Shown here: piece after piece, positions 4,059-32,581 of the stretch
Layout: every line of letters begins with the position of its first letter
How positions within the stretch are numbered: the stretch's first letter is position 1
Assembly: GCA_900088475.1 (NCBI GenBank)
Contig: FLMG01001299.1
Span: forward strand, 1-38,707
DNA length: 38,707 nucleotides
Direction: 5' to 3'
Source of the DNA: Hyphochytrium catenoides
Taxonomy: Eukaryota; Sar; Hyphochytriomycetes; Hyphochytriales; Hyphochytriaceae
Program-made: the position numbers and the translations under genes
Notes under the pieces: model-generated
Database searches by the model: none
Told to the model about the DNA's origin: nothing
What the model saw: only the letters and a program-made list of their open reading frames with translations

Positions 4059-5308
4059 AATCCCACTACTCTCAAATCCTTCTATCAAGGCTTGACGCCT
4101 TTAACTCATGAACGAAAGGCGGATTCTAACTCTGATGATATGCTACACTGAGTTGTTAGTCTGGCCATAATGCTTGTATTCAGCGTCTTGACTTTAATTT
4201 AAGGCGGAAGTTATGTCCCTAAAGTAAACAATGAACTCTGACTTGAATGATTCCCTACCAGTGGTGAGATGATGCCCAGCTTCTTTTGGTCATTCGTTGC
4301 TGACTTGACTCATTAAGCACGGCATGACGACCTAATCCCTGAGTCCTATTCAGCAAGATGTTTTGTGGCGACACACGACTCCAAGAATGACATACCCGGT
4401 GGGTGCGCCGTTATCCACCTGCTATGATAAGAGGACATGAAACCAATAGCTGGGGTAGCAGAACGAAGAGTTTCGTGGATAGGCCGATAGTGCCTGTAAT
4501 GACGAGCCATTTGACGTACAATGACATTGACAGCAACAAGTTAACCCGGGAATCCCTCATCAGCCTTCTGTTGATGATCGTTTGCTAGTACGTCGAAACT
4601 TGTAAGGGCAGGAACTAATGGGTCTAGGTCTCTAGAGGTATGACTGTTCATAGGAGCTTCGGCGACGTTTGGAGGGCCTTCCTTGGACCTTGAGTTCTCT
4701 CAGCGGGGGCATCTTTTGCCTGATTATCAGTCACCAACCCCATACAGTTGCAAACCGAACGGCTCAGGTTCTGATGTTAGTCACCAAATCTTCCAGCAGT
4801 AAGGTTGAAGCTCTCTGAAGCTCTTTGAATAGTTACAGGACGACGCTAGGAACCCTAATCCTACTCAGATGACATGGATGTCGCCGAAAGTAATAAACAC
4901 GGATAGGAGATAGAACCGGTTTCTTCGTTCTGCTTGTCCTCTACTAGCCAGGACACAAAAATAAAGTTGCCTTCCCGAATACCCCGCATTTAAGAAAGGC
5001 TTCGAAGGGCACGTTAGCGGCTCTTTACTGCGAATCGGCACTTGAAGGTCAATGCGAGATGAAGACTTCCAGATTCCAGACGCCTGGCCTTAGCCTTCGC
5101 GGCGGCCGCTCCTCTCGCTCGCTCGCGCTGCGAAGGGCTTGCTTATTACGTAGGTCTTGGCAAGTCCAGGAGCTATGGCGTCACTTAAGACGGGGCTGTC
5201 CTTCTCAGGAACCAGATGGGCTTCTCCTATGCCACAATCGCCGCTTTGGCCAAGTTGATGGCCTGCGCCTTGCCGCAGCTGATGACGTTGCAAGTGGGAT
5301 AAGGCACT
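4059..5308. other. Intergenic region between urate oxidase and the dynein heavy chain
   Basis: About 1.25 kb without a supportable gene. Open frames at 4403-4588 and 5059-5358 have no family resemblance. The stretch directly before 5309 is open on both strands over the start of the dynein gene, but none of these frames is convincing. It presumably holds the dynein promoter and 5' UTR. A short upstream ATG frame begins at 5174 in the same frame as the dynein start and ends at a stop about 50 bases before it. Confidence 0.5.
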
Positions 5309-6830
5309 ATGAGTTACGACACACTGCAAACCCGCCCCCACTCCCTGATCCAGCTTGAGTGGACAAAGAAACTTGCCAAAGGAGAAGGCGATGACGTTCC
5401 AGCTGCAAGATGGGGCCATACGTGTACCGCTGTTGGGTCGAATGTTGTCATATTTGGTGGTTGTGACAAGACGGAACCCCCGGGGCCCGTCAACGATACT
5501 TTCTTGCTTCGAACTGCTGGAGGTGAGTACAAGTGGTCGCGACTCAAAGTTCTTGGAGACATTCCGAAGCCGCGATGGCGGCATAGCGCCACTTTGATAG
5601 ACAACCAGAATATAGTCGTCTTCGGGGGCTTCCATAGCGAGACTCTGCGCTTCAACGATGTCTGGATATTCAATTGCGTCAGCCTTGCATGGAGACCAGC
5701 TGACGTCGAGCGCAGTCTCTTTACTCCGCGCGGTAACACTGTCACGGGGGTCCATAGACGCAACCTTATGACAGGACCCACTAGTCACGCCGGCCATAGT
5801 GGTACCCGCCCGTCGTCCTCCGCTACCCTTCCTCAGAAGCAATCGTTACTTGTGAGAGCGGAACCCGCCTCAAACAATGCAGAGATAGGAGCACCAGGTA
5901 ACGTTTATCCTCCGTCTCGACACTATGTCCTCAGCGCTTTTTGTGTTTTCGCTTTCCTTTTTCTCTGTACGTTGGGCCCAACATTTCTAAGTATTCACCG
6001 TTCTAGACCTTCCGGGGGAGGCTGTTGGGCCATCGCCACGAGGCTCTCATTCTGCCAACATTATCAATGGGGATTTGTACATATTTGGTGGCTATGGCGG
6101 TTCAGGCTTTTCCAGACGAGATTTTGATGATCTACACATTTTGCGCATTAAGTCACTGGAGGATATGTTCTGGGTAAAGCCCGCTACCAACGGTAAACCG
6201 CCGGAGAAGCGGTCGGGCCATCAGGTGATAAAACTGTTTGCTTACAATGCCCCTTCAGATATCGAGGACGAAAGTAACAGAAAAGCTGTCACTAGGGTTG
6301 TGCAACAGAGAGCAAGCTATTCGTTTATGGTGGATGGAGCTCGAGTGCCAGGTTCAACGATCTACACGTCTTCGACGTAGTCACGTTGACTTGGAGCTCG
6401 CTGGGTGCTCCTCTCCCTCCTTTAGGTCGCTGCATCTGGAACCATGCATCCTGTGTCATCCCTTCCATCCCAGATATGAAACTGATCTTCTTTGGGGGAA
6501 TGACATCGCGACTTCAGGAGACTTCTGCACAACAGCCCATGCAACCTTATGACTACTCGAACAAGGTCATCATGTACGATACAGGCACGAGGCAATGGTC
6601 TGAGCCGCCCGTAGTGGGCACCATCCCGTCACCTCGATCAGACTTGGAGATTGGCTACGATATACAAAAAGGCAACCTGTTGGTGTTCGGTGGGTGGTCG
6701 AACGCATGGTGAGTGAACGGTGCTGTCCATCACTCCTCCGGGGTAGACTGTAGGCTGATATGATCACAATGTTAGGCTGGACGATCTCTACGTTTTAGAC
6801 ATTGGCAGCATAGTGGGTCCAGCTTACAGC
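5309..6830 (+). other. Dynein N-terminal Kelch beta-propeller (six blades)
   Basis: Residues about 15-430 hold six Kelch-type repeats. The blade starts read ARWGHTCTAVG, PRWRHSATLID, PRGSHSANIING, EKRSGHQ, LGRCIWNHASCVI and SPRSDLEIGYD. The double-glycine turns are VIFGG, VVFGG, YIFGG, FVYGG, LIFFGG and LVFGG, usually followed by a ND(L/V)xxF or DDLYVLD strand. Blade 4 becomes continuous only after a 71-base intron (6225-6295) is removed. In Chlamydomonas outer-arm dynein a Kelch propeller of this kind sits in the tail and makes contacts between heavy chains or neighbouring arms. Confidence 0.88.
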
Positions 6831-9800
6831 GTTGTAGCTCTGTATCCTCCAACCGGGCCCGTGACAGGTGGCACAGAGATCTATATCGATGGCATTGACT
6901 TCCCAAACAAACCGGTGAGGCATAGCAATGTGTGAGAATATGCCCAGTGACCCGCCATACATTATGCATGTACAATGTCTATTTAAGAGCTCTCTCTGTT
7001 ACCGTTTGCTCGACTACTACCTGGCTCTCTCCTCTCTCTCTTTTAGGTTCAAGTACGCTTTTCCTCCAAAGTAGGGGCCATCGAAGTAGCCGGCAGCATT
7101 AGTGGCCGTAACATCGTTCAGGTCATCTCCCCGAACTTCATGAAATACGGCCACGGTCAGGTCCATGTGCGAGTCGCATTTCAGGGCGATTCGTACACAA
7201 CATCCTCTGTGCCCTTCACTTTCCAACCCGTTACCGATGCAGAAAAGTCATATGCCTTCGGCCCCGGACTTCTTAGTGGACAGGTGATCAACGTCCGTAG
7301 CATATTCTACATACAAACCCGGGACTCCTGGTTGGGAAATAGAGAGTCAGGGGGAGATCAGTGGGACATCACCATCAAGAGTGTTGAGGAATCGGAGGAA
7401 GAGCAGTTTGTGACTGCAAGTATCCAAGATCCCGGCAACGGGGTTTACACAGTCACCTATACTGCTCCTCTGGCGCTCACATACGAGATATCCGTCCTTT
7501 ATAAGGCAGGCCCAGGTTCTAGACCCAGCCATATTGCACTAAGCCCTTTCCGAGTGAGGTTTGAGGCGTCAGGCACGAAGGAGCTAAACAGCATAATCGG
7601 CAAATTGATGCAAGACGAACTCCGAAAAGACCTCGAGGAAGTGGAAAGCTTTGCCACTACAGCATTGGAGGGACTGCAAATGAAGAAGGATACGAAGAAT
7701 GGTGCCACGGAAGATGAGGAGGTGACTGAGCTTGTTAGGGTGAGCGTAGTAGTACTTATTTTCTGTGAGACTTCCCTAGATCTAAGTGGACTGCCAACTT
7801 GTCGCCGCTCTCCTTCCCGTCCTTAGGTTCTGTTACTTATTATTGGCATCGAAGAGCGGAAGGATGATTTCGAGCTTAGGCTATCTAGAGCACAGAGTAC
7901 TTTAAAAGAGATACAGCAGAAAGGGGACCGGCTGCCAACAGTCCAGAAGGTGCTGGGCGTTGCGGGAGATCACTGGCGGGCACTCTTGGCAAAGATCCCA
8001 GCTGCGCAGGCGACAGTCAATCCATTAATCAGAGTCCATCAGGGGCGGACCAAGGAGAAAATTAGGGCTTTTGAGGGACAGGTAGTTGAGTATAAGGTGA
8101 GTTGGAGGCTAATCTGGCACCACGAAACGAAGATGTTCCCCTACAAAGCTCAGGACAGTAGTTTACATAAGCCAGGCTTCAAGAGAAGAGAAGCTCATTA
8201 CCCCTGGTTATAGTGACGGAAACAGTTAGCTCTCGTTGCACGAATAGCGACAGAGAGATGTGATATAAGGAAGGGAATATTAGTATCGACAGCTGGAGAT
8301 ATCTAGGGTCTAGCCAGAGAACCGGCTTTGGCACTCTGAAGGAGTCTATCTTAATCTTCTTTATCTTCAGACTCGCTTTTTTTCCGAATCCTTCTGGCGG
8401 TTCAGTACGGAGACTGCGGAGACTCTAGACCAGTTGAGAGAAGAAAGTGAGAAGCTTGAAGCCTTAAAGGAAAATTTGACTGAGCAGAACCGCATCGCCT
8501 TCATCTTTGACTGTCCTTCAATGATGAAGACAGCAAACGAAGCAGTGGCGGAGGTAGAAAAGGCTCTCAAACGCTTGGAGAAGCTTTGGGAGCTTGCACA
8601 TCGTGTAGTAGCCTTCATGAAAACGTTAGAAGGCCAGACTTGGGGTGAGACGGATCCGCTTGCCGCAGCTCCAAAGGTGAAAGAGCTGGGCCAGGCGGTG
8701 GCTGCTTTGGGCCAAGAGCTGGCTTCTGCGGAGGTGCAAAACGGCTTAGTGGCTTTTGTCGCCAGCTTTGAAGCCCTTCTCCCACTGCTTTCTCTCCTAC
8801 GAGAGCCTTACATTCGCACTCGGCACTGGCAACAGCTGATGCGCAACATGGACGCTTTGTTTGATGTGCCTACAGAGCACCCGGAGGTACTGATGAGAGA
8901 AATACTGGCCTTAAAGTTGGTAGAGAATAGGGCAGTCGTTCTAGAGCTTTGTGCAAGGGCACAGAAGGAGAAAAAGCAAGAAGATTTTCTACAGGCCCTA
9001 AAGAGCAAGTGGGAAGGACTGTCCTTCCATCGCTATGTCCACTCGGAGTCTGGCAAGGAGCTACTGGTGCCCCCGCCTGATCTTCTTGAAGTACTCGAGA
9101 GTGATGAGCTCTCAACTACTGCGCTTCTTGCAGGCTCAAAGGGCCTAATGTACTCGGTAAGTCTGCGTAAGCACACAGAGAACCAGAGCCGGAAAAGACG
9201 TCACTGGGGTAGTTTTCCTTTCTTCGTTGATATCCTATTCTTGGCGTGGTAGGAGAGAGCACACTTATCGTGCAGCACCTTTCTACTCTGTCTCCCACCC
9301 TGCTAATTGGCAAAGAGGAATGACTCACGGGCTTCTCTCACCCTCGTATCTCTTATTATTGCTTCGATATGCCAACACAATGCCTAGGGCGAGTTGGAGC
9401 AATGGCAGCGATTTCTGCAGAAAGCTAAAGGAGTACTTCAGACAATGACAAGTGTGGTACACTCCTGGCTTTACCTCTTTCCTCTTTTCTCTGGCTCGAT
9501 ACAAGCTCAGGATGATTTGAGGGCCGACGCAGATCGATATCAGGAAGTAACCACATCCCTTTCGCTTCTCGAAGTGAAGTCAAATGATCCCTTGCCAAAA
9601 ATAAAAGCATTAGCCGCACAATCAGAGTTTCAAGCCGGCCTGGAACCGCTGTTGCTTGGCCTTCAGCATTGTAAGGCTGCCGTCAGCTCGTTCTTAGACC
9701 AGCAACGAGTAAGTGTCCCAGTGCTCTTCTTTGTTTCCGACGCGCAAATGATGAGAATCTTCTCCGACCCCATGGCCATTAAGATGGACATCAGAAAGGT

Positions 9801-12800
9801 GAGTTCAAGGAGCACAGCGGCTGGGCTCTGAGCAACTGTATATAAGTGGCGCCTACCAAGTTGACTCACGGCGCCTCTTGTCTTCCTAATCATCTCTTTC
9901 AATGTTTAGGTTCTTCCCGAGATTCGTCGTCTAAAATTTGACCAAGGGGAAGATCAAGCTATTGAGATATTGTGTCACGAACAGGCAGAAGCTCTCCCAC
10001 TTTCCTCTCCCGTCTCTCTCTCTCTTCCCCCAGAAAAATTTCTCTCGGAGTTGCTCCAGCTCACCAAGCAAAGCCTGAAGTCGGCTCTCGCGTCCTCTCT
10101 AGAGAGATACCAGGAGCAAGCGAGGCCTGACTGGCTCGTCCAAAAGAGGAAGGTGGATGCTGTACAGACTAGCGAAGAGAAGCAGGAAGAGCTGGAACAG
10201 CCCTTTGCAGACTCCTCACAGGTGGCGGAGCTCGCCCTCAGCATTTCTTTTGCCAAAGAGGTGGAGGAGGTCTTTAAGGAGATCAAAGCAGGGACCAAAA
10301 ACGCGATGAAAGACTACGCGGAAAGACAGCTTCTCGTTCTCTCGGACCTCCAAAGAAAGACACGGAGAGCAGGACAACAACGAGAAGCTTATAACCGCCT
10401 TTGCTCGGCGCTTATCGGCGAGCTTGGTCGACGGGATCTGCTAAAACATCTGGTGCAGGAAAGCGTGGATGACAGCAAAGACTTCAAATGGAGGGCGCAG
10501 GTTTTGTCAACCTTTACTTCTTATCTTCCCTAACTCTAATTCTCACCTATGTTTAGGCTGCTGTCAGTGCTAAAGATGGTCACTTGTCGTGAACTAGGGC
10601 TTTGTTTCTTCCTTTTCGCTGTTTCTGTTGCTGCCATCTTCCCGCCCAGAGCTTTGAATTTCGCTATTGTCTGCCCCTTGTAGGTCAAGCACTCCTATGA
10701 AAACTCCAAGATAGAGATGAACTTATTCGACCTCAATTTTGAACATGGAGGTCACTTCTACTCCGCGTCGTCACGCCTGATTATGACTGACTTACTGGAG
10801 AGAATGATTGTTGGTCTATCTCTCAGTCTGCGTTCAGTAGTTCCTTGTGCTTTGGTGGGACCTACAGCCGGGAAGAGGACGATCATTGCCGAAGTGGCCC
10901 GCCTTACAGGCAAGGTCTCTTGCCCATTTCTTTGCTCTTCTATGTCCTCCATTTCGTCTATTTTGTCTATCATTAGAGGGACGGCAGCCGCAGGTGCCTG
11001 GGTCGTCTGGGAACGACTAGAGGATTTGCCCTCTGGCGTGGCGTCTTACACTTTTAGTCTGATGAGCATCCTTTTTGATGCAATCAGAGCCTCAGGCGCC
11101 ATAACAGGTTAGGGAGACGCTGCAGCAACTGGCTTACTGATCTGATCGCTATCATCCTTCTGCACGCATGAACGCTATGTTCTGGACAATAGTATATGTT
11201 TGTCTCTAGTTTCTTGCTCTTACTCTCCGAGTTTCGCCATACGACCTCTTTTGCTAAGGGTGCTCCTAGGTTCGGTCGTTCATTTGGATGGCCTATCAGT
11301 TCCATTAGTGTCCTCCTGCAGCTGCTTTGTAGTGATGCCTTCCCACGGTGCCCACCAAAAGACTTGGGAACGGCTATTCGGAGGTACGATGAGAGGAGAA
11401 AGCGTCAACTTCAGCAACCTCTTTTGCGAGACACTAAAAGTTTCTCTTATACAATCCCTCTCTTGTCTTTGAAGATGCGCGACGTCTTTTCCGGCCCCTC
11501 CACGTGGGGCGTCCGGACCTTCTCTCTCTCTCGTGCCTCCTACTTTTAGCGAGTGGTTTTCTGCACTTCCAGAGCCTCGGACAAAGGCTTGCAGCTTTTC
11601 TTCAACAGCAAGAGTACAAGAATAGGTGCTTTCCTAGCACTGTTGCCCTCTCTCCCTCTCTTCCTTTAGCTATCCTAGAAGAAGGAGTTTTGGAAGATGG
11701 GGAGGAGACGGAAAGAGACGTGTCTTGGCATTTGTGGGATGTCAGAAAGGTCAAAGAGATCACGACGGCTGCTGCCTCTCTTCTTCTTGCCCATCGGGCA
11801 GCTGCAGTTAGCGCCACATTACGTGCGGGGAAAAAGGGTGATCCAGTGGAACGACAGGAGGAGCAAGAGAAGCTACCAGTCCATAAGGTGAGGAATAAGA
11901 AAAAAGGGCTTGCAAGTAGTCATTTACTTCTCCATCGTGGCCGTCCTGTATGTGATCATTTCTTACTCCTGTTATCGATTGCCGTCCCTGACATGTTTGC
12001 TCAAACTATTAGTGGACTTCAGGCCTGCTATTGCACCTTTCTCTAGCCCTGTTCCGCTAATCCTTCATTAACTAGGGCGTAGAAGAGAGACTAGTCCGCA
12101 AGGCTCTGTTGGCTTGCCTAGAGCCTCGGTTTAGAGGCTCACGAAGGGAGGAGCTATTGAAAGATGTTGCACTCTTTTTTGGCAAAATGAACGCTACAGA
12201 GAGTGCGGTTGGTGGACAGAATGGAGTAACAGACACCTCGCCCGAAGAGCAACAGCGTGTTCTCTCGTTCTCAGGTTACTCAGAGCAACTGCATTTATGG
12301 CCAGACGCAACCTTGCTGGTCAAGTGTATGCAGCTCCAGTCGTTAACCGCCAGTCAAAGATCAGTGATAATAGCAGGGCCTCCTGGTAATATAGATAATC
12401 GTCAGCGTCTCTTTGCGTGGACCTCCTCAGCTATGCAATTCATGTCCAAGGCACCTGCTCACCCTCACCCCTATATACTTCTGTAAGCCTCTTCAGCTCC
12501 TTTGTCGGATCGTTGATGCATTTCCTCCATCTTCCCAGGATCGGGTAAAACCCAAGTGCGGAGATTGCTAAACTACGCTCAAGAAAAGGAGCGCGGACCA
12601 GGCAAGGTGTATGTCCGTCCGCTCTCTCCATTGGCACTGGAGACAGAAGAACTGCTCGGTGCCTTAGCGCACGGAGATTGGCGGGATGGACTGTTGACAT
12701 CGCTGCTGAGAAAGGAGAAGGTCTACGCAGTCCTGAACTATGAAAAAGCATTTCCTGCAGGAGTGGACGTCTTAATGTTTGCTGTCTCCTCTTGACCGTT

Positions 12801-15800
12801 CATCATCCTTTCTTATTGCGTCCTATTGTAAAGTGCTTTGTTATGGACCTGCATCATCAACCTTCTTCTTCGCCATTCCTCTAATATCATTCGGCGTCCG
12901 GGCGCCCTTAATTTTTGTTGGTGGGTTATGTTGATACACTTCCTTTTCACCAAACAGGAAGGGGTTGAAGAGAAATGGATCGTTGTAGATGGAGAGCTGA
13001 ACGATGAGCTATTCCATCTTTTGGGAGGTGGACAAGAGTCTCTTGTGCTGCCGACGGGGGAGAAGCTCAAAGTAGAAGAGAATGTCAGGGTCCTTTATGA
13101 GTCCTCGTCTCTATCTCTTCTCTCACCGTCTTCCCTGTCTCATTGCGGGCTTCTGTACATCTCGCCCCTAGACTTTAAGGCGTGGGAAGCCTTATTAGGT
13201 AAGGCGAAGTTGAGCTCACATTTACTCCCCGCACTTCATGCGCAGGATTGTTCTGATATTTTTTTTTGGTCTCCAGAAAGACTGAGATGCGTCAGAACTT
13301 AGCATAGCCTCATCCAAAAATGTTCCTTCTCTCTCTCTGTCTCTTTGTGTCTCTCCCACGCTCTGTCTCTTTGTCTCTCACTCTCTCTCTGTTCTGATCT
13401 AATGATCTTCACATGTCATGCTCTGTCTCAGCGGCCTGGGTTGCAAACTTGGAGACTTCAGGCGTAGTAAAGGAAACTTTAACCAAAGCAACAGAGAGAT
13501 TTCTAAAGGCACCGTTGCAATTTTATAAGACAGTAAGTGCAGCCGTCGCAAGTCTGTGACCTCATTTTATACGGGTATTGTCTGTATGTTGCTCTGCCTA
13601 GCTTTAGGACGTTTCCATAGAAGCCATAGTTTACATGCCATAGCATCAATTCTTTTTTTGCTCTGCCTACTGCCCACAACTTAGCTTTTCCTAATAAGTC
13701 CTATCCATCGCGACCAAAGAGTCAGATCCAGCGCTTAACGGTGCCTCTTTTGATGTCAAATTGTTAGTTGGGCGATGGCCGTACCGTCGCGGTAGTGCAG
13801 ACTTTCATCCGGTACCTACAAGGCCTTCTTGCTTCGCATAAGCGGCTCTTCGAGAACCTTCAAGCTCTGGAGAAGGCAACCGAGTTTGCTGCCGTATGGG
13901 CGATAGGGGGCTCCTTCCTGTCACAAGAGCAGATTTATGGAGCGGCAGATAGGATAGAGAGGACAAGAGGAGAGGAAGCCAACTCTATCTCTTTTTCATC
14001 ATGGTGGCTGAGTTCTGTACCTGACAGTCAGCTACCTCCTGGAATCACGAGTGTCTTTGACGTCTGGTTCAACGACCAGACTTATAGCTTCGAAAGATGG
14101 AGAGATTCACCTTTCTTTAATAGAGAGGTAGGTGACATAACCGCCTATGTCTGTTGATGTGAAAGCTCCCACTCCATGCCTTGATATTGCTTACTAAGTT
14201 TATCTGTTCGTTTCCACTCTGGTGACCCACAGTTGTCATCTCTGCTACGCTACAGATTTTGTCTCGTCATCTAAGCTTTCGCGACGTATGCGTGCCAGGC
14301 ATTGCCTCCCTTCAAGTCTGAACCGTCCACCGCCGATCTTGCGCGGGTCTTCATTCCCACTGAGGCCACAGCTGCTGCGGAGCAGTGGCTTACCGTGACC
14401 CTAACAACAGGAGGAGGAGCAGTGTTGGTGGGGAGAAGCGGGGGAGGGAAGCGAAGAGTGATGAATAACTTTCTTCGGCGCTGGGGCCTCCTCACAGACG
14501 GGATAGACATAAAACATATCGCAATGACTAGCGAGCTATCCTCCGCGCGACTGCAGAGATATTTGGAGAGCCAACTAGTTGGAAGGGAGGCAGAGGACAG
14601 TGGAAAACAAGAAAGACCAGAGTGTGAAGGGGGCGAGATGTCTCCTGGGGAGGGCACCAGACTGCTGCTAGTATTCGTGGAGGATGTCAGCGACGGTATT
14701 GAAAAGAGTGTAGAGTCCAAAGGCAACGCACTGGAGCTTCTACGGCAGTATTACGACTACGAAGCATGGTAAGGGACTCAAGCTGAAACTAGCTGTCGTT
14801 CTTCAGTACATCTTCGTGCTTATGCATTGTGTTTTGTTGCTGCCTGTTACTTGGGCCCAATGTCAAGCATCCAAAGGGCTACTTAGTGATCCTTGGTTCC
14901 TGCTTCCCTCAGGTATGATCGGGGAAAATGGCAGCTGAAGTCTATAACCGGCTGTGCCTTCTACGGCTTAATGAACTACAGCGCCATTCCTTCTTCCTTA
15001 GCTAGAAGGCTTCTCCGCCACCTTTCCGTGGTACCCCTTTTTTCATTCCGTGCGTCGTCTCTCTCTTCTCTGCTGGTTACGCTCCTGGACGGCGCGCTTA
15101 CCGGTTCACGCTCTGATGCCCGGTCATTGATGCTGCCCCTCTCTGAGCTCTTGGTAGATCTCCATTGGACAATAGTCCAACGCTTCCGTCCTAGTCAGTC
15201 ACGGCCACAATTTGTGTTCGGACTGCACAACCTCGTACGTGTGGCACTTTCTATTTGCAAAATAGACAGAGCTACCTTGAAAGGACCGCTTCTCGTTGAG
15301 GTCAGTGGGTGTTCCCAGTATTCTCCTCTAATGTATGCTCGGAAGTCTGCTGCTTACTCTCAACCCTTAGTGTCCTTTCCTCTCCACCTCCCACTTTTTG
15401 CTAGCTAAGTCGTCGACCTTAAGCCTGGTTCTTTCTAAATTGCTTTTCTCCAGTTGCTCTCTCATGAGCTAGAGCGCGAATATGGAGACAGACTCCCAAC
15501 CGCTGATGAGCGAGCGCAGTTCTCCTCTCTCCTTCTGTCGAAGTTCCCGAAGTTCATTCCCCAAGAAGCGATTCCCTCCTCCTCTGCCGAACCTACTGAG
15601 AAAGCGGCAGGCCCAGATACTGAAAATCCCTTCAAACCGCAGTCCCTACTCTTCCAGGCGTTTCCTCCTCTGGCTTCTCAAGAAAAAGAGAATGACGTAG
15701 GAAGGCCAACAGGATATAAGAAGATAGACAACTTGTCTCTAGCGTACAAACAGTTCTCCACCTCCTCTAGCGCGGTACTGTTCAGACCACGTCCGGACCG

Positions 15801-18800
15801 TCGTCTTTTGCTCTGTGAAGCTCTCTTCTGTCAGATCCTTAAGCTCTCCCGAATACTTTGCTCCTACAAGGGTCACGCTGTTCTTTCGGCTCCCTCTGGT
15901 TATGGAAAGAAGACTCTTGCCTCTCTTGCGGCTCTCTGTCTGCAAATCCCCGTTCGGAATCTCCCATTATCAGCTACTCCTCTAAGTGCCGAAGATCTTC
16001 GAAGCAGCCTCCGAACTATAATGGCTGAATTTACAACCGATATGTCAGGTACTGGAGTTCTACTCACGATTAGGGAGGAGGAGGTTCTAGACTGCAAAGG
16101 CTGGGCCGTGCTTGCTGCTTTCCTATCCGGTAAATTAGAAGGAGAAGTCCTCAATGCGGATGACAAGGAGATGCTAACCTCATTGGTGAGGAATCTAATA
16201 GGTCTAGCACGGTTCGCATCGTCTTCCTCACTGATTGTTATATACCCCTGCCTCCTCTAGGTGTGCGAGAAGGCTCGAAGTAACGGTGAAGTCCTGGATC
16301 AAGGGCAGGCCTGGCAGCGGTGTCAAGGTCTCCTGCAAGAACGAGTCCATGTCTTTCTCCTTTCCGGGACCGAACTCTGCCGCTTTGGAAAGGAAGTAAC
16401 TTCCATGATGCAACTCTGGTGCGCACTGAAGAAGAGCGGTTACCTATCTCTCACGCAGAAGACCTCTTTGCTCTCCATGCTCGTTTTCATCATAGTGTTA
16501 GTGTCTCCGTTGCACTCTTCGGCTATGTAGCCAGATTCTTGGCGGTGTGCTGGCACGAATATGACTGCCTAACGCTAGTCAGTCCTAATACAACCCTTGT
16601 CCTTTCCTCTCTTTGACAGCACTGTGATTTGTCTTCCTCCACTTCTGGCTCCAGATTTGTCCTTCCTTGCACAGCAGGCGCTTGGAACCCTGGAGACCCT
16701 TGACCCTAAACTGCGACCAGGAGTGGAAGAATTCTTAGCACAAGCCTTTCTGAGGGCACAGGAGTTGGAAGAACCAAAGGTTCAGAATAGTTCTGATGAC
16801 AGGGAGCCTTACTTCAAGCCCCAAGCCCCTTCTTGAGAGCTTTCTTTGCCGCCCTCTTGCCATCTCCATGGTTCGTCAGCCATTAACCACAAACACTCAC
16901 GTTACCACCTTAGGCCGAGGCCGTAACCTCCTCAGATTTCTACGAGTCCTTGCACACCTTCTGCCACCTGTACATTGAAAAACAGCAAGCAACCCGGCAG
17001 GTTCATCAAATCTCTATCTACCTTCGTCTGTTTCCCTTTAGCCGAATGAAGTTTTTCTGTTCCTTAAAAGGGAAAGGCCCCTGTCTCGCATCATCTTTTC
17101 TTGTTTAGACCAGGCAATGCAAAAACTTAGGTTCTTCCCTTAAACTTTCTTTCAGCAATTGATGGCCCTGGCGAGCGCAACCTTTCGACTGGAAGAGGTG
17201 GAGGGGTCCATCAAAGTCTTCCAAGCTGCCCTCAAGAAGGCGATGACCGAGGTCGACCAAAAGAGGAAAGGTCTAGGCGCTGCCTTCGAGAAGGTGAGCT
17301 ACACGTGCAGGACGGGGGTAAAGTTATTCATAGATGTCCGTCCTAATTCTTCCTAGGTTGAACGGGAGAAATCCAATAGTGTGGCTCTGCAAGCTGCAGT
17401 AGAGAGTCAGAAGCTTGTCTTTCAACGGCTCAGCATGGAAGTGGAAGCGAAAAGGAAGGAGAAGCAGGTTAGGTTGTGGACTTGCAAACGTTCACCCCCA
17501 GCCCCGCCTAGGGTATTCCTTTCACGTTATTATTTATGCAAACCTGCTGTTACACAGGGCGAAGAGATCAAAGCAGCTCCCTTTCTACGCGGCATGCTTC
17601 TGGCTTTGGACCGTTTAGAGGTAAAGGAGGTCGGGCGAATGAAGCTCCTCACGCAATTGCCAGAGGACTGTGACCCTATCGTAGCCGCTTTAGCTGTGCT
17701 GATGGCTGGGGTGCACAAAGGAGTCACCATTCAAAAAAATGGCAAGGTAGGAGGAGGACGGTCATGTGTCGCGTTAGGCAACTTGCCTTCGTCGCGTCCC
17801 CTCCATTCTCTCCATTTTCTTTTCCTTCCGTTCTGAGAAAGAGAAGGCATTCCACCAATACGTCAAGCATTGCCTAGCGGGCTCTTACCTCCCACAGTTT
17901 TAGTGATGGTTCCGCTATCGTGTTATGCTTTGCCCTCTGCCTCTCCTCACCACTCTCTGGAGTTCTCACAACGCTATGTACAATGTTTCTTAGGTCCTTG
18001 AGACGCATCGGACGTGGAAGGTGTTGCGCTCTTCACTGTTCGCCAATATCGCCGAGTTCCTGGAGGAGGATCTGCCGAAATTTATCAAGATGATTGAAGA
18101 ACAAACAGTCCCAGGAGTAAACTGGGTTGAGGCAAGCACTCTCTGTTTCTTTGTTGGTGCTAGTCTTCTCATTTGAATCTTCTGCCGTGGCAGGGTACCG
18201 CCTCAGTCCTAGTCTTTACTCCCTCTGTTTTGCTACCTCTTCTAACGCGATAAAACTCTCTTATCCTTCCAGCTTCGGCCGTTCCTTAATCTAAAGGCAT
18301 TCACAGTGGAGGTCCAGCAGAGGCGGCATCCCGTCACGGCTGCACTATGCGAATGGCTTCTGAACGCCACGCAATACAACGAACTTATGGCGAAGCTGCT
18401 TCCTAAGAAGAAAGTTCTGAAAGAGGTATGAGAATACTACTTACCACTATTGTTCTCGACCCCTGCTGGAGAAAAAGAAACCGCCCGTCCTGCCCAAGTG
18501 GCGCTTTCAGCCGCGTAGCACTCTGTGACTAAAGAGTAATGTCATAGTTTGAGGAAAGGTTCGAGAAGGAGCAAGTCAACCTTCAAATAGCTGAGAGGGA
18601 GGCTATGGAGGGCAAGGCTAAGCTTCACACAGCGGAGGAGAAGTACGCACAGGCACTTCAAGAAATCAAGGATGCTGAAGGTTTCTCCTCTCCATTATGT
18701 CTCGCTCCTGGTCCCTGTAGGTTCTTATCTGACTTGTCCCTTCGCTGTACCATGGCCGTTCTTAGGGATCGTGGCGAAGAGTCAAGAAGCCACGACTTTA

Positions 18801-21800
18801 GCTTCAAAACTTGCGGAGGCATTCGAATCTGACGTTGAGAAGGTGAGACACCACGAGTGCAAGAGAAGGAGAGTGTAAAGAGGCTGGAGGAGCCATACGA
18901 TGAATAAGGCGGAAGTGGTCAGGGTGTGCAAAAGAGGGGAGCCAAAGAACCTCTACCAATTGTGTCTCTTTCGTTCCTCGCGTATGTTAGTGGAAGTCTC
19001 GGGAAGCGTCACTTAGACGCCAGTCAGAGACGCTGCTCGGCAGCAGTCTCATCACTAGTGCTTTCCTGAGCTACTGCGGCCCTTTTAGTCCCGATGTCAG
19101 AGCGGGGATGATCAGCAAGGTAAGGCCGACCTATCCTCCTCCTCCGGTATACTTTGCAGGGCGCCAAGTGATTGTGGGCATGACGGGCCCTTACTTCCCT
19201 TTCCGTTTCCCGGAGAGAAAGCATCCTTCTGCTTTAAGATTATCTCTTACAGCCTCTTCTCGACTTGAGCTATGTCTGTACATTCACATGATTCCTTGCC
19301 ATCGAGCTCATACCGTTTCTTCCTCCGGTTATTACCGGCATTTTGCGGCTGGCCACGTAGTGGATGGAGCTTCTAATTGGCCTAAAGCAAAGCGGGAATG
19401 ATCTTCCATTGTCGCCTAGTTTTTCTCCGTCTTCGTTCCTTTGTACATCGAGAGACACGCTCCTCTTTGCCCAAAGCAAGTTGCCCACGGACGAGTACTC
19501 GATACAGAGCGCCGCCATTGTCAAGAATGCAACCAGGTAAGCAAGTACGACCAAGGAAATGCGGCTTAGACCGTTGATAGCTGGATGAATGGCAGACATC
19601 ACATTCTGCAATTCTGACCGGAATCTCTCTTTCGCTACCTGCATCTCTCTTTGGCGCAATAATTCCATCAGGAGAGCTGTTCTAGTGAAAGACCCCTATC
19701 TCCAAGCCTCTCAGTGGCTGAAGACGCCAGGAGCACTGGGGCTGGATCAGGTGGTATTCACAAAGCTTGGAGGAGGAACAGGTGAAGGGGTCGACAATAT
19801 TGATCAAGCAGTCCAAGCAGCCGTTGAATGGGGAAAGACACTCGTGGTGGACGGAGTTGGAACCTCCAGTTTCCCTCTTTCTCTCTGTGCAGCAGCAACT
19901 CTTGACACTATGCAGCGCAATGGTCAGGAGCTGCTATACTGGGGATCGACTGAAGTCCGTCTCCATCCCTCGTTCCGGCTTGTTCTGCTCTGTCCTCTCT
20001 CCGCTCCCCCACTACCGCAGTCTGTGCGCAGAAAAGTGCAGGTCACCTCCTTTTGTTACGTCTCACCGTCAACGTTGGAGGCAGAATTGAGCAAAGTGGC
20101 ACTGGAGAAGTGTCGTCCTTTGCTCTCTCGCGCCTACTACTCTCTTTGTGCCAGGCAGTCAAGATTGAAGGCCGAGGTCTCTCTGGCAGAGGTGAGAGAC
20201 CACCACCGTCAGATTTTTAGCCTCGCTTCAATCTTTCCCAAGGTTCTTCAACTTCTAGCTCACACACTCTCATCACGTTGTCACCTCTTATTTCCGTGCT
20301 AAGTTCAGAAGATGACTAGGTCTCTTCTCTTTGCTCCACTTCTCATCGGGCGTTGACCCACGTTTTCGGGTCGGGCCTTCTTCTTACCCTTCAAACTCTG
20401 GGATTTAGGATGCGATGGTGCTTGAGATTGGGAGCTATCAGGGGGAGCTCTACAATGATAAGGAAAAAATACGAAGCCTTACAAATATGAAGACCACCAG
20501 CGAAACGCTGAGGAAAACTCTCTCTTCTGCCTCCACACCTCGAGAAGCGATGGAGGTGCAGATTGAATACTACAAAGGGATCGCAGAGAGGGCAGCTCTT
20601 CTCTTTCTCTGGTTGCAGGAGCTGGAGAAAGCGCATCACGTATACTGCTTCTCTTTAGCTTCATTTGTTAGTCTATTTCGTAGTGCAGTCGGCAAGTTTC
20701 TCGAGACGGAGGATAGGGATGGTCTGGAGGTAGCTTTCTCAGCTGGGGCACTGAGGCGGCGGCTAACTGCGGACCCGCCAAGGCTTCCTACGAATCCGCC
20801 TCGCACTCACTGGTGCTCTTACTGCTTCGGCGACTCAGACAAGTCTCCTACCGACGGAGAGGTTGAAAAGGCCGTGAAAGAATGGAAGGAGAAAGACGTA
20901 GCGGCCTCGGAGGAAGAGGTAAGGGCACATCAACCATCTTCTCCCTCTAAATTCTATGCTACCAACATAGGACTAGTCAACGGCTCACTCATCTCTCGTT
21001 AGTTGGTAAATGCCAAGTATGACTTCCTTATTCTCTGTAGGCGCTCAAACTCGTGGCAAACTTGCGTGACTACGTCAGTCAAGCGGTGATACAGCTAGCC
21101 AAACAGGCGCTTTTGCCCGAACATATTCTGCCCGCCGCTCTAAGGCTCGCTCTCCTCCTTCTCAGGCAGGAAATGAAGGAACCTGAGAACGCAGAACTTG
21201 TTCAAAAGGTAAGAAGCCGTATTACAAGGAAAGCGAAGGAGGACGGGTACACGTTTATCATGGGGCGCTATCAGTATTGGTAAAGCTTACCCATTGCCGA
21301 AGGCTTTATAACGTTTATCCCAAGCCTGTTGCTTGGCACCACTTATCCTATGCGGGAGAAATCTCTCTGTTAACTTTGTCCACGCCGCAGTTTCTTCCTG
21401 CTCCAGCGAGACGGACTTCGGGCTTATCCGCTCCTTCTGAGGTGTCTGAGTGGCTAGACAGCCAGACATGGGCATCCGTGAAACGTCTGGAGGAGGTTCC
21501 AGGGCTCACATCTCTGTCCTCTGAGATTTTGAAGGAGGCAGCGGAGTGGGAGGACTGGATAGAAGGTTACGCTCCGGAGCTGGATATGCCGACCGCGCTG
21601 AAAGGTGCCAAAGCGCATATCAGGCTTCTGTTAACAGGTATGAATAGGCAGCAGTTTTGACACCTTTGGAAAGAGGCACAGTCGATGGAAAATCAGTACG
21701 GAGAAGACAACACTTCACCGGTAATGGGCTGATCCTCTCTTTTTCTCTAACCATGCAGCCAATCTTCGTCGTGATCGCCTTCAGGACGCCTGTGAGCTTT

Positions 21801-24087
21801 TTGTGTCGGAGCTTCTAGGTATGATTTTGCTATTACGTTGACTTCAGCGCTTCATTCCTCTCCCTTTATGTTTCTCCGAAGTGTTCTCTCCCTCCTGTCC
21901 TACCTCCTGTCTCTCCCTTTCCTCCGGTTGCTTGATTCTTCTAAAACCTTCGCATCCTATGCAGGTCAGCATGTGGGCAGGATCTACTTTTTTAGTGATC
22001 TTCCACTGTCTAACATTATCGCCCAAGAGACCTTACCGTCTACGCCAGTTCTTCTTTTCCAAACCGATGAGGCAGATATTGTCCGCGTCCTCTCCTCGCT
22101 AGCCGCTGACATGGGCTTCCCTGAGGAGAGAGGAAAGCTCTCCATCATCTCCCTCGGCTCTGTAGATGCTCAAGCGAAGACCGAGGCAACACTGAAGAGA
22201 TTTAGCCGCGAGGGCTGTTGGATTGTCTTGCATAACTTCCACCTTTGCCCATCAAGCTGGCAGGCAAAAATAGCGAAGCTGCTAGAGGAGAGCGCTCCCA
22301 CCTCTCACGCGCAATTTCGGTGCTTTATATTAATGGACTGGGCAGCGGCTCCATCCTTGCCCGAGCTGCTTCTTCGCCACTCTCACAAAGTCACCCTTGG
22401 GAAGAAGGCGTTATCTGCTAAAGCAGACTTCTACCAGATGTGGCTCTCTGCGGAGGCAAGTGCTCGAGGAGAAGGACTGCGTCGTCGTCAGGAGTTGGTC
22501 ACGGCAGTCTATGCTCTGTGTTTCCTTCATCTACACCTTAGGCGAAGGGAGCTTTGTGGGGGAGCTGGATGGGACTTTCCCCTGTCTATTCATCCCTCCA
22601 GTCTCCATACTGCCGTCAACTATATGCGCGACTTCGTGCTGCGTGTCGGAGGCGCCACCGGTGAGAGTGCTGTCGCCGCAGAAAAGTTTGGCACTTTGAT
22701 GCCATGGGAAGAGCTTCAATACGTCATTGGTAACATACTTTACGGGGCAACAGTGCGCGGCAAGGAGAACCAGTCCATATTGAGCTTAGAGGCGCAGCAT
22801 GTCCTCAGGGAAGAGGTTCTCACTCAAATGGAAGTCTCTCCTGGGTTTCAGCTGCCTTCGCCTGCTCAAAGTGATTTCTATGAACTAGCAGAACACATTA
22901 TCGGGGCGCTGCCGTCATATGGCTGGCGCTTGCAGCCTTGGCTTGCTGTCAAAGAACGGTACCATCTCTATGAAAGAAGTCTTTACTGCCCTTTACTCCT
23001 AGAAACAGCTACTAGCGCCTCAATGGCAGATAGAGACTCTGAGACGATGGCGGAGAACCGGACAAGGGAACATCTCGAGGCTATCAGAGCTGTTCTGCCA
23101 AAAGCAGAGCTCCAGCTCGACGGATTGCAGTCTCAAGTAAGCAGCACGGCAGAGACGGAAAGTGGCGCACTACTCCTCGCTCTCCTGGAGGAATGTGAGC
23201 TAATGAATGTCCTCATAAGAAGAGTCTCTGCTGATATAAGTGCATGTCTCGCGGTAGTACAAGGGGAGGCAAACAGCACGTTGCGGACGCAGCAGAACCT
23301 GGCCTCTGTTGCTTTGAACATCGTTCCACCTTCCTGGAGGTTGTCGGAGGCCACTAACCTTGGTTTATGGGTAAAGAACCTTGGCCCACAAGTCCTGGAG
23401 ATGCAGCGTTGGGCAACCGATGTGCAGCTCCCCGTCTGTTATGACCTGAGCCTTTTTAACAGTCCCAACCGCCTGCTTCTCGCCGTCATCCGATCCGGTG
23501 CGAAGAAGTTGAAGAGCTTGCCATCTGCCGTCGCTCTAGATGCCAGGCCTACTAGATGGATGACGCGAAATGAGGTTCAGGCGGCTGCTGAGAATGGGCT
23601 CTACGTCTGCGGCTTGAAGCTCCAAGGTGCCAGATGGGAAAGTACCGGCCAGCAAGGCAAGAAGGGCCAGAAGAGTGGTCAGCCCGATCAATCCCGATCT
23701 ACACTGAGGAGCAAAGCTGGCGACCAAGGTGAAGCACCATCTACAGCGAACAACACCCGAACCGCTGCTGGGACAGCCACCAAGGGTGGACGTACAGGGT
23801 CCTTACGCGCGTTGGCGGTACGCGATTGTAACTCCATGACCCCGTTTCCGGTGTTGCATATCTTTGCATCTGTGCCGCGGGACGTGGACAATGTAGTCCG
23901 AGCAGAAGACGGGATAAGCATCTATAGAGAGCTTTCTGACCAGTTTGACTGTCCAATCTACGAGACCAGCTCCCGCCGACACCGACTTGGCCTTATACCT
24001 CTTGCACTTGGACCAGATCTGTCTTCGAAAGACTGTTTGCTTCAACGCGTGACACTATTCCTCAGGGAAGATACGGACGTCAGCTGA
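5309..24087 (+). CDS. Kelch-containing axonemal-type dynein heavy chain with degenerate AAA1; about 38 exons, ~4,359 residues
   Basis: Modelled exons: 5309-5897, 6007-6224, 6296-6708, 6776-6914, 7047-7739, 7827-8096, 8371-9156, 9388-9798, 9910-10500, 10684-11107, 11270-11383, 11475-11887, 12076-12385, 12539-12720, 12958-13198, 13432-13532, 13768-14127, 14299-14768, 14913-15300, 15454-16185, 16261-16418, 16620-16779, 16914-17000, 17156-17293, 17357-17467, 17558-17746, 17994-18116, 18273-18425, 18548-18680, 18766-18842, 18991-19119, 19388-19536, 19672-20191, 20409-20918, 21041-21208, 21391-21637, 21759-21818, 21965-24087. Every junction is GT-AG with matching phase, and the total is divisible by three. 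Domain order: Kelch propeller, IPT/TIG, filamin-like repeat, linker, AAA1-4, stalk with microtubule-binding tip, AAA5-6, C-terminal domain. The Kelch-filamin front end is the hallmark of outer-arm heavy chains such as Chlamydomonas alpha (ODA11), so an axonemal outer-arm role is inferred. AAA1 lacks catalytic residues. The start at 5309 is the first ATG ahead of blade 1; an extra upstream exon cannot be excluded. Least certain is 17001-17155. Confidence 0.88.
6790..7560 (+). other. Dynein tail IPT/TIG domain followed by filamin-type Ig repeat
   Basis: Residues about 415-515 begin with VVALYPPTGPVTGGTEIYI, the classic IPT/TIG opening, and run to VPFTFQP. Residues about 520-640 show the filamin-repeat pattern: SYAFGPGLLSGQV, then a QDPGNGVYTVTYTAP strand pair, then an SPFRVRFEASG end. 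Together with the Kelch propeller this matches the front end of Chlamydomonas alpha-type outer-arm heavy chains. Confidence 0.8.
8371..10500 (+). other. Dynein linker (DHC_N2-like) region
   Basis: Exons 8371-9156, 9388-9798 and 9910-10500 encode the linker that swings over the AAA ring. Landmarks are REPYIRTRHWQQLM (family: R-x-RHW), then SWLYLFPLFSGSIQAQ (family: W-x-YLEPIF), then VLFFVSDAQMMRIFSDP (family: RFFFVSD), and FKWRAQ just before AAA1 (family: FEWxxQLR). AAA1 starts near residue 1370, several hundred residues earlier than in most heavy chains, so the ordinary helical tail between the filamin repeat and the linker is largely missing. Confidence 0.8.
10684..12075 (+). other. Dynein AAA1 module, catalytic motifs degenerate
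   Basis: Position is fixed by the flanking linker and by FDLNFEHGGHFYSASSRLIM (family: YEYLGNxxRLVIT). The Walker A site at 10858-10878 reads GPTAGKR, that is GxxxGK, where the family has GPAGTGKT (GxxxxGK). The Walker B site reads AWVVWERLEDLP at 10996-11031, where the family has AWGCFDEFNRI, so the catalytic Glu is Arg. The sensor segment is FVVMPSHGA in place of ITMNPGYAG, losing the Asn. A downstream LFRPLHVGRPDLL is recognisable (family: LFRPVAMMVPD), as is WHLWDVRKVKEI (family: HYDWGLRAIKSV). The fold is therefore present but the site should neither bind ATP normally nor hydrolyse it. Confidence 0.8.
12076..14127 (+). other. Dynein AAA2 module with intact P-loop
   Basis: The P-loop GPPGSGKT (about residues 1788-1795) is created across the intron 12386-12538: one base of the fourth codon lies at 12385 and the rest at 12539-12540. 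WRDGLL (family: EWTDGI), KWIVVDGELND (family: KWIVFDGPVDA) and SPSSLSHCGLLYIS (family: SPATVSRCGMVY) follow in order, so AAA2 is recognisable from end to end. In known dyneins AAA2 binds ATP without hydrolysing it. Confidence 0.85.
13320..13395. repeat. Pyrimidine-rich CT repeat inside a dynein intron
   Basis: An imperfect CT/CTGT-rich tract lies within the intron 13199-13431. It is noncoding in the splice model and sits upstream of the acceptor at 13431. Confidence 0.7.
14299..15453 (+). other. Dynein AAA3 module
   Basis: VFIPTEATAAAEQWL matches the family VPTxDTxR lead-in. The P-loop is GRSGGGKR at 14431-14454 (family: GPTGTGKS): spacing is intact but the Ser/Thr after Lys is Arg. The Walker B equivalent is VFVEDVSD (family: FIDDLNMP). 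ALELLRQYYDYEAWYDR and RRLLRHLSVVPL correspond to the family ELLRQxxDxxxWYD and RRxRHF motifs. RPQFVFGLHNLVRV near 15205 matches the FNLRDLSRV segment that closes AAA3. Confidence 0.8.
15454..17000 (+). other. Dynein AAA4 module
   Basis: LSHELEREYGDRLPT matches the family HExxRVFxDRL. The nucleotide loop is SAPSGYGKKT near 15886-15915 (family: GVGGSGRQS), with Ala at the first Gly position but a GK pair that most axonemal AAA4 loops lack. FLSGKLEGEV matches the family iLxxGEVP. HVFLLSGTELCRFGKE corresponds to HVVLCxSPxGxxFRxR, and it joins TVICLPPLLAPDL (family: CTIDWFxxWP) only when intron 16419-16619 is removed. Confidence 0.75.
17156..18842 (+). other. Dynein stalk coiled coil and microtubule-binding tip
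   Basis: Exons 17156-17293 and 17357-17467 encode the first stalk helix (Glu/Lys-rich, heptad-like). Exon 17558-17746 contains LRGMLLALDRLEVKEV (family: ALDxLxxxDIxEVK). Exons 17994-18116 and 18273-18425 form the microtubule-binding tip: TWKVLRSSLFANIAEF, then VTAALCEWLLNATQYNELM (family: SxAAxxLCxWVxAMxxY) and LLPKKKVLKE. Exons 18548-18680 and 18766-18842 return as the second helix. The tip is therefore complete although diverged. Confidence 0.8.
18991..20408 (+). other. Dynein AAA5 module
   Basis: LLGSSLITSAFLSYCGPFS matches the family LxGDxLLxxxFIxYxGPF. KLPTDEYSIQSAAIV matches GLPxDxxSxxNGII, and RRAVLVKDPYLQASQWLK matches RWPLMIDPQxQAxxWI. EVRLHPSFRLVLLCPLS and VTSFCYVSPSTLEAEL correspond to HPxFRLYLTT and VINFxVTxxGLExQLL. 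Exons are 18991-19119, 19388-19536 and 19672-20191. Confidence 0.85.
20409..22470 (+). other. Dynein AAA6 module
   Basis: After IRSLTNMKTTSETLRKTL and the Tyr-x4-Arg-Ala segment (YYKGIAERAALLFLWL), the AAA6 core follows: LAKQALLPEHILPAAL, WLDSQTWASVKRLEEVPGL and NLRRDRLQDACELFVSELL (family: RPDRxxxAxxxFV). LLFQTDEADIVRVLSSLA takes the place of the family SPGADP loop, and GCWIVLHNFHLCPSSW matches GxWVxLQNCHLxxSW. Spliced from 20409-20918, 21041-21208, 21391-21637, 21759-21818 and 21965 onward. Confidence 0.85.
22471..24087 (+). other. Dynein C-terminal domain, with a low-complexity insertion
   Basis: The long last exon encodes the helical C-terminal region and then VYVCGLKLQGARWE-type sequence (family: VxGLxLEGAxWD). 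Directly after that motif, 23638-23805 encodes about 55 Gly/Gln/Lys/Ser/Thr-rich residues that look like an inserted loop. The final strand region resumes with VLHIFASVP and the DCPIYET motif (family: CPVYxT), ending at the TGA at 24085-24087. Confidence 0.85.
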
Positions 24088-27416: not shown

Positions 27417-27754
27417 CACCCCCATGACTTACTCAACTCGAATCGCCAATTATTCTGAATGTTGTTTGCTTCTTCTTCTTCCCAGAAATCCTAGCCGCTA
27501 ACGGTAGGAACCAAGTCACGTTTTCTTCTGAGTCATCAACAGCAACAGGAGAAGCGGAAGAGTCTCTGTGAGAAGCGCCGGTGAGTCATTCACCGCGGCC
27601 TCGATGCTGCCCAAGGCAGAGGAAGCGAAGACCCAAGAGAAGAAGACCTCCAAGACTAATATATTATCTAAGGACATGGCCGGGATAGAGGGCTAAGTAA
27701 GCTGGAGCGATGTGGATTGTCTGAGGTAAAAGGTGGAAGCTCTGGGAAGAGAGA
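26566..27754. other. Intergenic region before the GNL1-type gene
   Basis: Apart from the purine repeat at 27101-27420 I see no gene. The segment 27421-27754 should include the promoter and 5' UTR of the GTPase gene. A possible 5' UTR intron cannot be judged from sequence alone. Confidence 0.5.
27101..27420 (+). repeat. GA-rich purine microsatellite, ~320 bases
   Basis: Nearly unbroken purine on the + strand, built from GAGA, GACAGAGA and GAAAGAGA units. On the - strand it reads as Leu-Ser repeats (27084-27436) and on the + strand as Arg-Glu repeats; both are trivial open frames. Confidence 0.95.
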
Positions 27755-32250: not shown

Positions 32251-32581
32251 CAGGATATGCAAAAGATCAGGGCGCACTGATGTGTTGGGAGGAAGACTGG
32301 AAGTGCTGAGACCAGAGGATCAATCTGTGCAGTTCAGGGTCTTCCCCATATCTCGAACTCGGCACAGCCGCGCCAACAGAGAAGAGAGAGAAAGAGCAAG
32401 AGAGAGAGAGGGAGAAAGAGCGAGAGAGAAGAGTATCAGCATTATCAAGAGCTCGTCTCTCCTTAATTTCTTGCTGTTTCCTTCTTCCAAAGGATCTTCT
32501 TCAGCCAGAGATCGCCCGCGCTCTAATGTTCAGACAGTAGGGTCCTCGGGGTTCTGAGGCGCAGAGGACGGAGACAGGAAG

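Follow-up and report, generated by a model that had tools for sequence, protein, structure and literature searches.

The gene at positions 5309 to 24087 on the forward strand of the window, by which we mean the whole 38,707-nucleotide stretch of Hyphochytrium catenoides DNA analyzed here, probably encodes a third outer-arm dynein heavy chain of the Kelch type, whose catalytically dead head is retained in some outer arms for a structural or regulatory role. The features of the gene and of its predicted product, here called the window protein, are as follows.

5309..24087, + strand: whole coding gene, Kelch-IPT-filamin-dynein heavy chain with a degenerate motor; 39 predicted exons, 38 GT-AG introns, 4337 amino acids
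5309-5897, 6007-6224, 6296-6708, 6776-6914, + strand: exons 1-4, Kelch beta-propeller and start of the IPT/TIG fold (Pfam Kelch families to 7e-26); 3' end of exon 1 uncertain
7047..7739, + strand: exon 5, remaining IPT/TIG fold and filamin-type Ig fold (Pfam Filamin 54.8 bits; over the spliced stretch, Filamin 55.9 bits and TIG 24.5 bits)
8371-9156, 9388-9798, 9910-10500, + strand: linker region, DHC_N2 (Pfam 4.6e-26 in 8371-9156)
10684-11107, 11270-11383, 11475-11887, + strand: AAA1 module (Pfam AAA_6 38.8 bits over the first exon)
10858..10878, + strand: degenerate AAA1 Walker A, GPTAGKR against GPAGTGKT (sequence and aligned columns)
11008..11025, + strand: degenerate AAA1 Walker B, WERLED against FDEFNR (sequence and aligned columns)
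11335..11349, + strand: degenerate AAA1 sensor 1, MPSHG against MNPGY (sequence and aligned columns)
12376..12552, + strand: intact AAA2 Walker A, GPPGSGKT, split by the intron 12386-12538
14317..14768, + strand: AAA3 exon with degenerate Walker A GRSGGGKR and Walker B VEDVSD (Pfam AAA_7 1.4e-11)
15454..16185, + strand: AAA4 exon with degenerate Walker A APSGYGKK (Pfam AAA_8 2.7e-07)
16914..19119, + strand: stalk coiled coil and microtubule-binding tip, recognizable (Pfam MT 76.2 bits over the spliced stretch; alignment)
19672..20191, + strand: AAA5 exon (Pfam AAA_9 1.1e-12)
21965..24087, + strand: AAA6, AAA lid, C-terminal domain, last exon and stop (Pfam Dynein_heavy, AAA_lid_11, Dynein_C 1.1e-28)

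The exon path was obtained with a spliced-alignment program that combines a profile with codon use and splice signals, and the N-terminal exons were placed by hand using splice signals. The introns are thus predicted, and because GT-AG borders and an open frame are in part imposed by the program, the path score serves as the control. The best path scored 3820, whereas three block-shuffled copies reached 324-345 and the reverse strand 253. The only in-frame stop is the terminal one, the other two frames of the exon sequence hold 220 and 187 stops, and the 38 introns are 63-274 bases long. Additionally, the best codon score falls in the used frame for 38 of the 39 exons, and the codon score is weakly positive in all six domains scored. 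Two unlike profiles were run, one built from six heavy chain paralogues of the same genome and the other from Kelch-type dyneins. The second model, from the Kelch-dynein profile and with its ends not extended, has 38 exons and 4291 amino acids; it ends exon 1 at 5732 instead of 5897, takes 20722-20838 as coding and moves one exon end by 6 bases (12762/12768) and another by 15 (18116/18131). None of these differences lies within AAA1, where both profiles pick the identical three exons. An earlier note on this DNA had described a full-length heavy chain, in frame over about 38 exons, which keeps linker, stalk, microtubule-binding tip and C-terminal domain. The open model of 4337 codons and the matches to DHC_N2, MT and Dynein_C agree with this description, but the Kelch-IPT-filamin N-terminus, which is not a standard dynein tail, had been overlooked. 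The AAA1 module had been placed at 10684..11480; its start agrees, but it extends to about 11887.

Other genes are seen on the forward strand of the window. Upstream of the dynein gene lie a katanin con80 domain (726-1652, 91.6 bits), possibly of a katanin p80 gene, and a piece of uricase (3744-4055, 48.2 bits), while a GTPase domain, MMR_HSR1 (27725-29083, 51.2 bits), and a PX domain (32558-33691, 39 bits) lie downstream of it.

All three AAA1 motifs that we tested are degenerate in the window protein. The P-loop lacks one residue and has Arg as its last, so it does not match GxxxxGK[ST], Glu-Arg replaces the acidic pair DE in Walker B, and the sensor-1 Asn is absent. These are the residues that the earlier note had pointed to, and both the sequence and the alignments confirm them. 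The P-loops of AAA3 and AAA4 are also lost, while the nucleotide pocket of AAA2 is kept (GPPGSGKT with WIVVDG). Judged by these motifs, the predicted protein is classed as not an active dynein. It is hardly conceivable that an artefact of assembly or gene model conceals a normal AAA1. Although the introns are inferred from prediction, the Walker A codons lie within a single exon, which means that they could be replaced only by a different exon, and G....GK[ST] and [FLIVCMAW]{3}DE[FLMIVWH] had zero matches in six frames of 10400-12100. No alternative exon with a P-loop or DE pattern, and hence no path restoring GxxxxGKT and DE, was found in that region, and the two profiles give the same path. 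Furthermore, an artefact would have to account for motif loss that spans AAA1, AAA3 and AAA4, and for five other proteins that are similarly altered.

Along the spliced model, Pfam finds a Kelch propeller, IPT/TIG, filamin and then a dynein heavy chain, i.e., two Ig-type folds follow the propeller. The propeller is contiguous with the motor, as DHC_N2, AAA_6, AAA_7, AAA_8, AAA_9, MT, Dynein_heavy, AAA_lid_11 and Dynein_C all match on this one model, in which the joining exons are predicted. Kelch-IPT-filamin-DHC is the defining architecture of the third outer-arm heavy chain, whose features include an enlarged AAA5 loop over the buttress and which is described as an extra source of motive force (King, 2025; PMC12338079). 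The position of its ring and its docking on the beta-chain tail are treated by Rao et al. (2021; PMC8500839). The N-terminus therefore suggests that the window gene is this third chain, called alpha in Chlamydomonas and gamma in Tetrahymena. A homologue search with residues 1-650 returned at least 23 matches, of which 22 are Kelch-dyneins and one is a Kelch protein with no dynein domain, and some of the Phytophthora matches carry the depositor name "Dynein alpha chain, flagellar outer arm". Nine of the 22 Kelch-dyneins listed align with the window protein in one stretch of 3800-4300 residues (25-27%, >1100 bits). Among the matches listed, we take the named nearest relatives to be mostly stramenopiles. 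In the N-terminal tree of 42 rows, the window protein is placed with the oomycete alphas and the proteins P0064 and P0086 (support 98/99). Collectively, architecture and tree assign the predicted protein to the third outer-arm class. The earlier reading of an axonemal-type dynein with a dead AAA1 thus holds for the dead-site motifs but had missed which chain this is.

The motor and the attachment end have diverged to very different degrees. Compared with the alpha chain of Pythium oligandrum (P0063), the window protein is 43% identical over the Kelch-Ig end, 15% over the short tail, and 28/28/31/28/19/30/23/25% over linker, AAA1, AAA2, AAA3, AAA4, stalk, AAA5 and AAA6-C. The corresponding values for the Triparma laevis alpha (P0108) against P0063 are 49% and 26% and, for the same motor parts in order, 51/76/56/52/49/58/52/56%. 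The window motor is thus 19-31% identical to P0063 where ten intact alphas are 45-88% identical, while its Kelch-Ig end (43%) falls within the 41-49% of intact alphas from other groups. For nine intact alphas, i.e., the ten aligned besides P0063 minus Phytophthora P0068, identity to P0063 is 41-60% in the N-terminus and 74-79% in AAA1. Within the window protein, AAA1 has lost most (28% to P0063 vs 74-88% in intact chains), and stalk and tip are less eroded than AAA1 (30% vs 50-73% in intact chains having that part). However, the N-terminal end branch of the window protein is 1.19 changes per column against a tree median of 0.4, and the other degenerate chains described below also lie above the median (P0131 0.91, P0064 and P0086 0.65, P0121 0.62, P0115 0.59). 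Some intact chains are equally long-branched in this tree (P0127 1.16, P0119 1.13). The long branches of the six degenerate chains might mean that constraint is lower at the attachment end too, and this end therefore appears far better kept than the motor, yet not untouched.

A search with P0064 gave 93 matches, itself included, and the set screened with a profile of intact AAA1 comprised 99 proteins from this search and that with residues 1-650 (P0063-P0161), the window protein and C388, a Kelch-dynein from another contig of the same genome. Among these 101 proteins, 9 were without an AAA1 match, 5 were partial in AAA1, 81 were intact and 6 were degenerate. All but one of the intact chains (80/81, C388 included) have exactly GPAGTGKT and FDEFNR, the remaining one being P0096 with GTAGTGKT. 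The two groups are well separated, with profile scores of 378-455 bits for the 81 intact chains, 60-183 bits for the 6 degenerate ones and none in the gap between. The Walker A and Walker B motifs of AAA1 in the degenerate chains are:

Window protein: GPT-AGKR / WERLED
P0064: GESCTGKA / FRHIDL
P0086: GPSGSGKV / FRDVLS
P0115: GHNGT--SS / FDSMEH
P0131: GPPGVGKT / VEGVHR
P0121 (Chrysophaeum taylorii, NCBI): GPACCGKS / LEDFDR

P0064, P0086, P0115 and P0131 come from the sources lgn and ena, and all five comparison proteins are gene calls studied at the protein level only. Both Walker motifs are changed in four chains (the window protein, P0064, P0086 and P0115). P0121 and P0131 retain a legal Walker A, with ED for DE in P0121, and "dead" is less sure for these two since both may still handle ATP. 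The AAA2 P-loop GxxxxGK[ST] is kept in all six, and that of AAA3 in five, the window protein being the exception. In AAA1, the window protein is less identical to P0064 (17%) than to P0063 (30%); the degenerate motors are mutually unlike, and no common "dead-head" sequence is thus conserved. With five further Kelch-dyneins altered at AAA1, the window protein is not one odd sequence, a recurrence that the single-gene view of the earlier note had missed.

The Kelch-dyneins of oomycetes, ochrophytes and their relatives form two old clades, A and B, and the window's genome has one of each. In the N-terminal trees, clade A holds C388, Aureococcus and others, while clade B, whose base is weakly supported (83/68), holds oomycetes, Triparma and all six degenerate chains. 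When the count is limited to the 87 chains whose AAA1 is covered in full, with clade membership beyond the trees assigned by hand, degenerate chains make up 0/15 in clade A, 0/17 outside A and B (14 placed by tree and three by hand) and 6/55 in the rest, which were called B by exclusion. The N-terminal trees rest on 572-615 columns, and the window branch in them is long. The 42-row tree is a subset that we chose from 83 rows, and these 83 are the 101 without P0066, P0067, P0071, P0085, P0088, P0089, P0100, P0126, P0150, P0152 and P0157-P0161, and without P0138, P0143 and P0155, whose N-terminal match is too short. The 21-row trees leave P0066, P0067 and P0071 out of 24. The motor tree is saturated and uninformative.

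We also considered the window gene as a recent duplicate of the genome's own alpha C388, and this grouping was rejected (p-AU 0.0004). A single origin of the six degenerate chains was likewise rejected (p-AU 0.0002), in a test on 572 columns that shares any long-branch pull. Well-supported branches force three changes among the degenerate chains. If a lost AAA1 is not regained, this points to at least three losses: one in the window protein with P0064 and P0086, one in P0115 and one in P0121 with P0131, with a larger number if the first three do not belong together. The putative group of the window protein, P0064 and P0086 has a support of 65/91 in the 42-row tree; in a 21-row tree that does not include P0086, the window protein joins P0064 with 93/94. 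P0115 forms a pair with the intact P0111 (100/100). Most likely, therefore, the window gene is the organism's clade-B alpha, which has gone dead, with a live clade-A gene in the same genome. Only one genome shows this pattern of A alive and B dead. For Aureococcus and Chrysophaeum, which we take to be pelagophytes, it is suggested by the two species together, Aureococcus falling in A and Chrysophaeum having a degenerate chain in B.

In the genome, AAA_6 matches occur on 21 contigs, of which the window's is the weakest (36.4 bits), followed by C712 (72.4 bits). AAA1 could be read in 19 of the 20 other contigs, that of C25 lying in Ns, and GKT and DE are complete in 18/19, while C900 has only the second half of the P-loop (TGKT) together with DE. 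C388 is an intact alpha with a Kelch end, GPAGTGKT, FDEFNR and MNPGY, in a reading without the C-terminal part; the intact outer-arm paralogue that the earlier note had thought worth looking for is thus present. For both C122 and C508, the closest chains are outer-arm betas. The two share 48% identity over 1675 residues, and C122 shares 44-45% with three animal beta-type chains over a stretch of about 2750 residues, which makes both betas look old. Together, the intact alpha and the two beta-like chains suggest that ordinary outer arms are assembled too. With two beta types and two alpha types, two outer-arm isoforms are suggested as well. Another divergent heavy chain lies at C1027:379001-396000 (loci L015 and L016), nearest to PDB 8glv chain Fm and DNAH6-type inner-arm dyneins; its AAA1 keeps GPSGCGKT and LDEMQR, and its sensor 1 reads TFGKGFP against the usual TMNPGYA. 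C566, a contig to which AAA_6 gives no match, has weak Dynein_C matches at 4771-5841 (31.9 and 68.7 bits) that possibly represent a further divergent or partial chain. Apart from the dyneins, a scan of the genome for the chlorophyll-binding family PF00504 gave no match.

How such a chain might work can be proposed from the parts that it keeps. The Kelch-Ig end would still dock on the beta-chain tail, and the ring would fold around a structural ATP in AAA2, which in dynein holds ATP without hydrolyzing it (King, 2025; PMC12338079). AAA1 would be unable to bind and split ATP normally, leaving the head without a power stroke. A docking end and an AAA2 pocket without an AAA1 cycle would then yield the same third ring, left in one pose. 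The head could space, brake or gear the beta head, or else form a fixed cross-bridge via the kept stalk. In Chlamydomonas, arms assemble without the alpha chain, and the two cilia then no longer differ in beat (King, 2025; PMC12338079); loss of the motor may therefore be tolerable and could tune one flagellum. The "pseudo-motor" of the earlier note, with a structural, regulatory or tethering role, is in line with the open frame, the motor-biased decay and the intact C388, from which such a role seems plausible.

That the frozen head is instead bound to the neighboring doublet through the stalk tip, tying two doublets permanently and not acting on the beta head, is possible but somewhat unlikely. 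Stalk and tip are still recognizable (Pfam MT 76.2 bits) and less eroded than AAA1, as the identities to P0063 given above show, but the attachment end points to the ordinary outer-arm site. We consider it unlikely that the gene is a relic under relaxed selection, i.e., a clade-B alpha on its way out that has been replaced by C388 and has no special role. The strongly decayed motor, the intact alpha in the same genome, the recurrent changes and the mutual unlikeness of the degenerate motors would all fit a relic, as would the long N-terminal branch, which allows for relaxed selection on the whole gene. However, a model of 4337 codons without stop or frameshift despite saturating divergence of the motor is difficult to reconcile with this explanation, and the weakly positive codon score in every domain scored, the 43% identity still seen in the Kelch-Ig part and the AAA2 P-loop kept in 6/6 degenerate chains also argue against it. 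Finally, it is very unlikely that the head is not dead, with AAA1 binding nucleotide atypically or a reduced cycle driven from another site. The window AAA2 P-loop is intact, as is that of AAA3 in 5/6 degenerate chains, but AAA1, AAA3 and AAA4 of the window protein are all without the motif, and the reported lack of hydrolysis in AAA2 makes this site a poor candidate.

A third outer-arm chain with a dead head kept as a structural or regulatory part thus remains our preferred explanation. As a tentative extension, stramenopile-type flagellates may have two anciently separated alphas, of which one stays a motor while the other has repeatedly become motor-dead and is selected for its docking end, ring and AAA2 ATP. 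Powered and passive arm classes could then set the stiffness or waveform of different flagella or zones. If the alpha engine was switched off at least three times with the mounting kept, the position of the third head would matter without ATP hydrolysis, and this head may sometimes be a passive part and not an engine. This opens the question of which roles besides pulling an alpha head may have, such as spacing, braking or gearing the beta head, or making the two flagella of one cell different. For cryo-EM and for rescue tests of Chlamydomonas oda11, the degenerate chains would be a natural source of motor-dead variants. No motor-dead outer-arm chain was found in searches of one open-access library, a scope that most subscription papers fall outside, and a term search of the text of Wickstead and Gull (2007) gave no P-loop, Walker, degenerate, catalytic or Kelch.

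The five other degenerate Kelch-dyneins resemble the window protein in having the same architecture, an altered AAA1 Walker B and a kept AAA2 P-loop, but differ from it by their kept AAA3 P-loop and, in P0131 and P0121, by the legal Walker A. A search with the AAA1-AAA2 region gave at least 62 proteins of 17-35% identity, two of them named DNHD1 (dynein heavy chain domain-containing protein 1), and no close orthologue among the matches listed for this query. Vertebrate DNHD1 is also a dynein-like chain with an altered AAA1 (P0031 GPDGVGKM/IDHAER, P0053 GPHGAGKT/INHAER), but the precomputed Pfam lists for it have no Kelch or filamin family. Over AAA1-AAA2, it is 23% (P0031) and 22% (P0053) identical to the window protein, with 56 and 44 bits, whereas the nine Kelch-dyneins mentioned above exceed 1100 bits, and DNHD1 is therefore not the closest by sequence. 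Mutations in DNHD1 are reported to lead to malformed sperm flagella (PMC9916431). Of the known proteins that we met, DNHD1 is the nearest analogue, as far as the two sequences examined go. The window protein shares the Kelch propeller, two Ig-type folds, linker, AAA modules, stalk and C-terminal domain with Chlamydomonas alpha (ODA11) and Tetrahymena gamma; unlike these chains, it is without the AAA1 catalytic motifs and the P-loops of AAA3 and AAA4.
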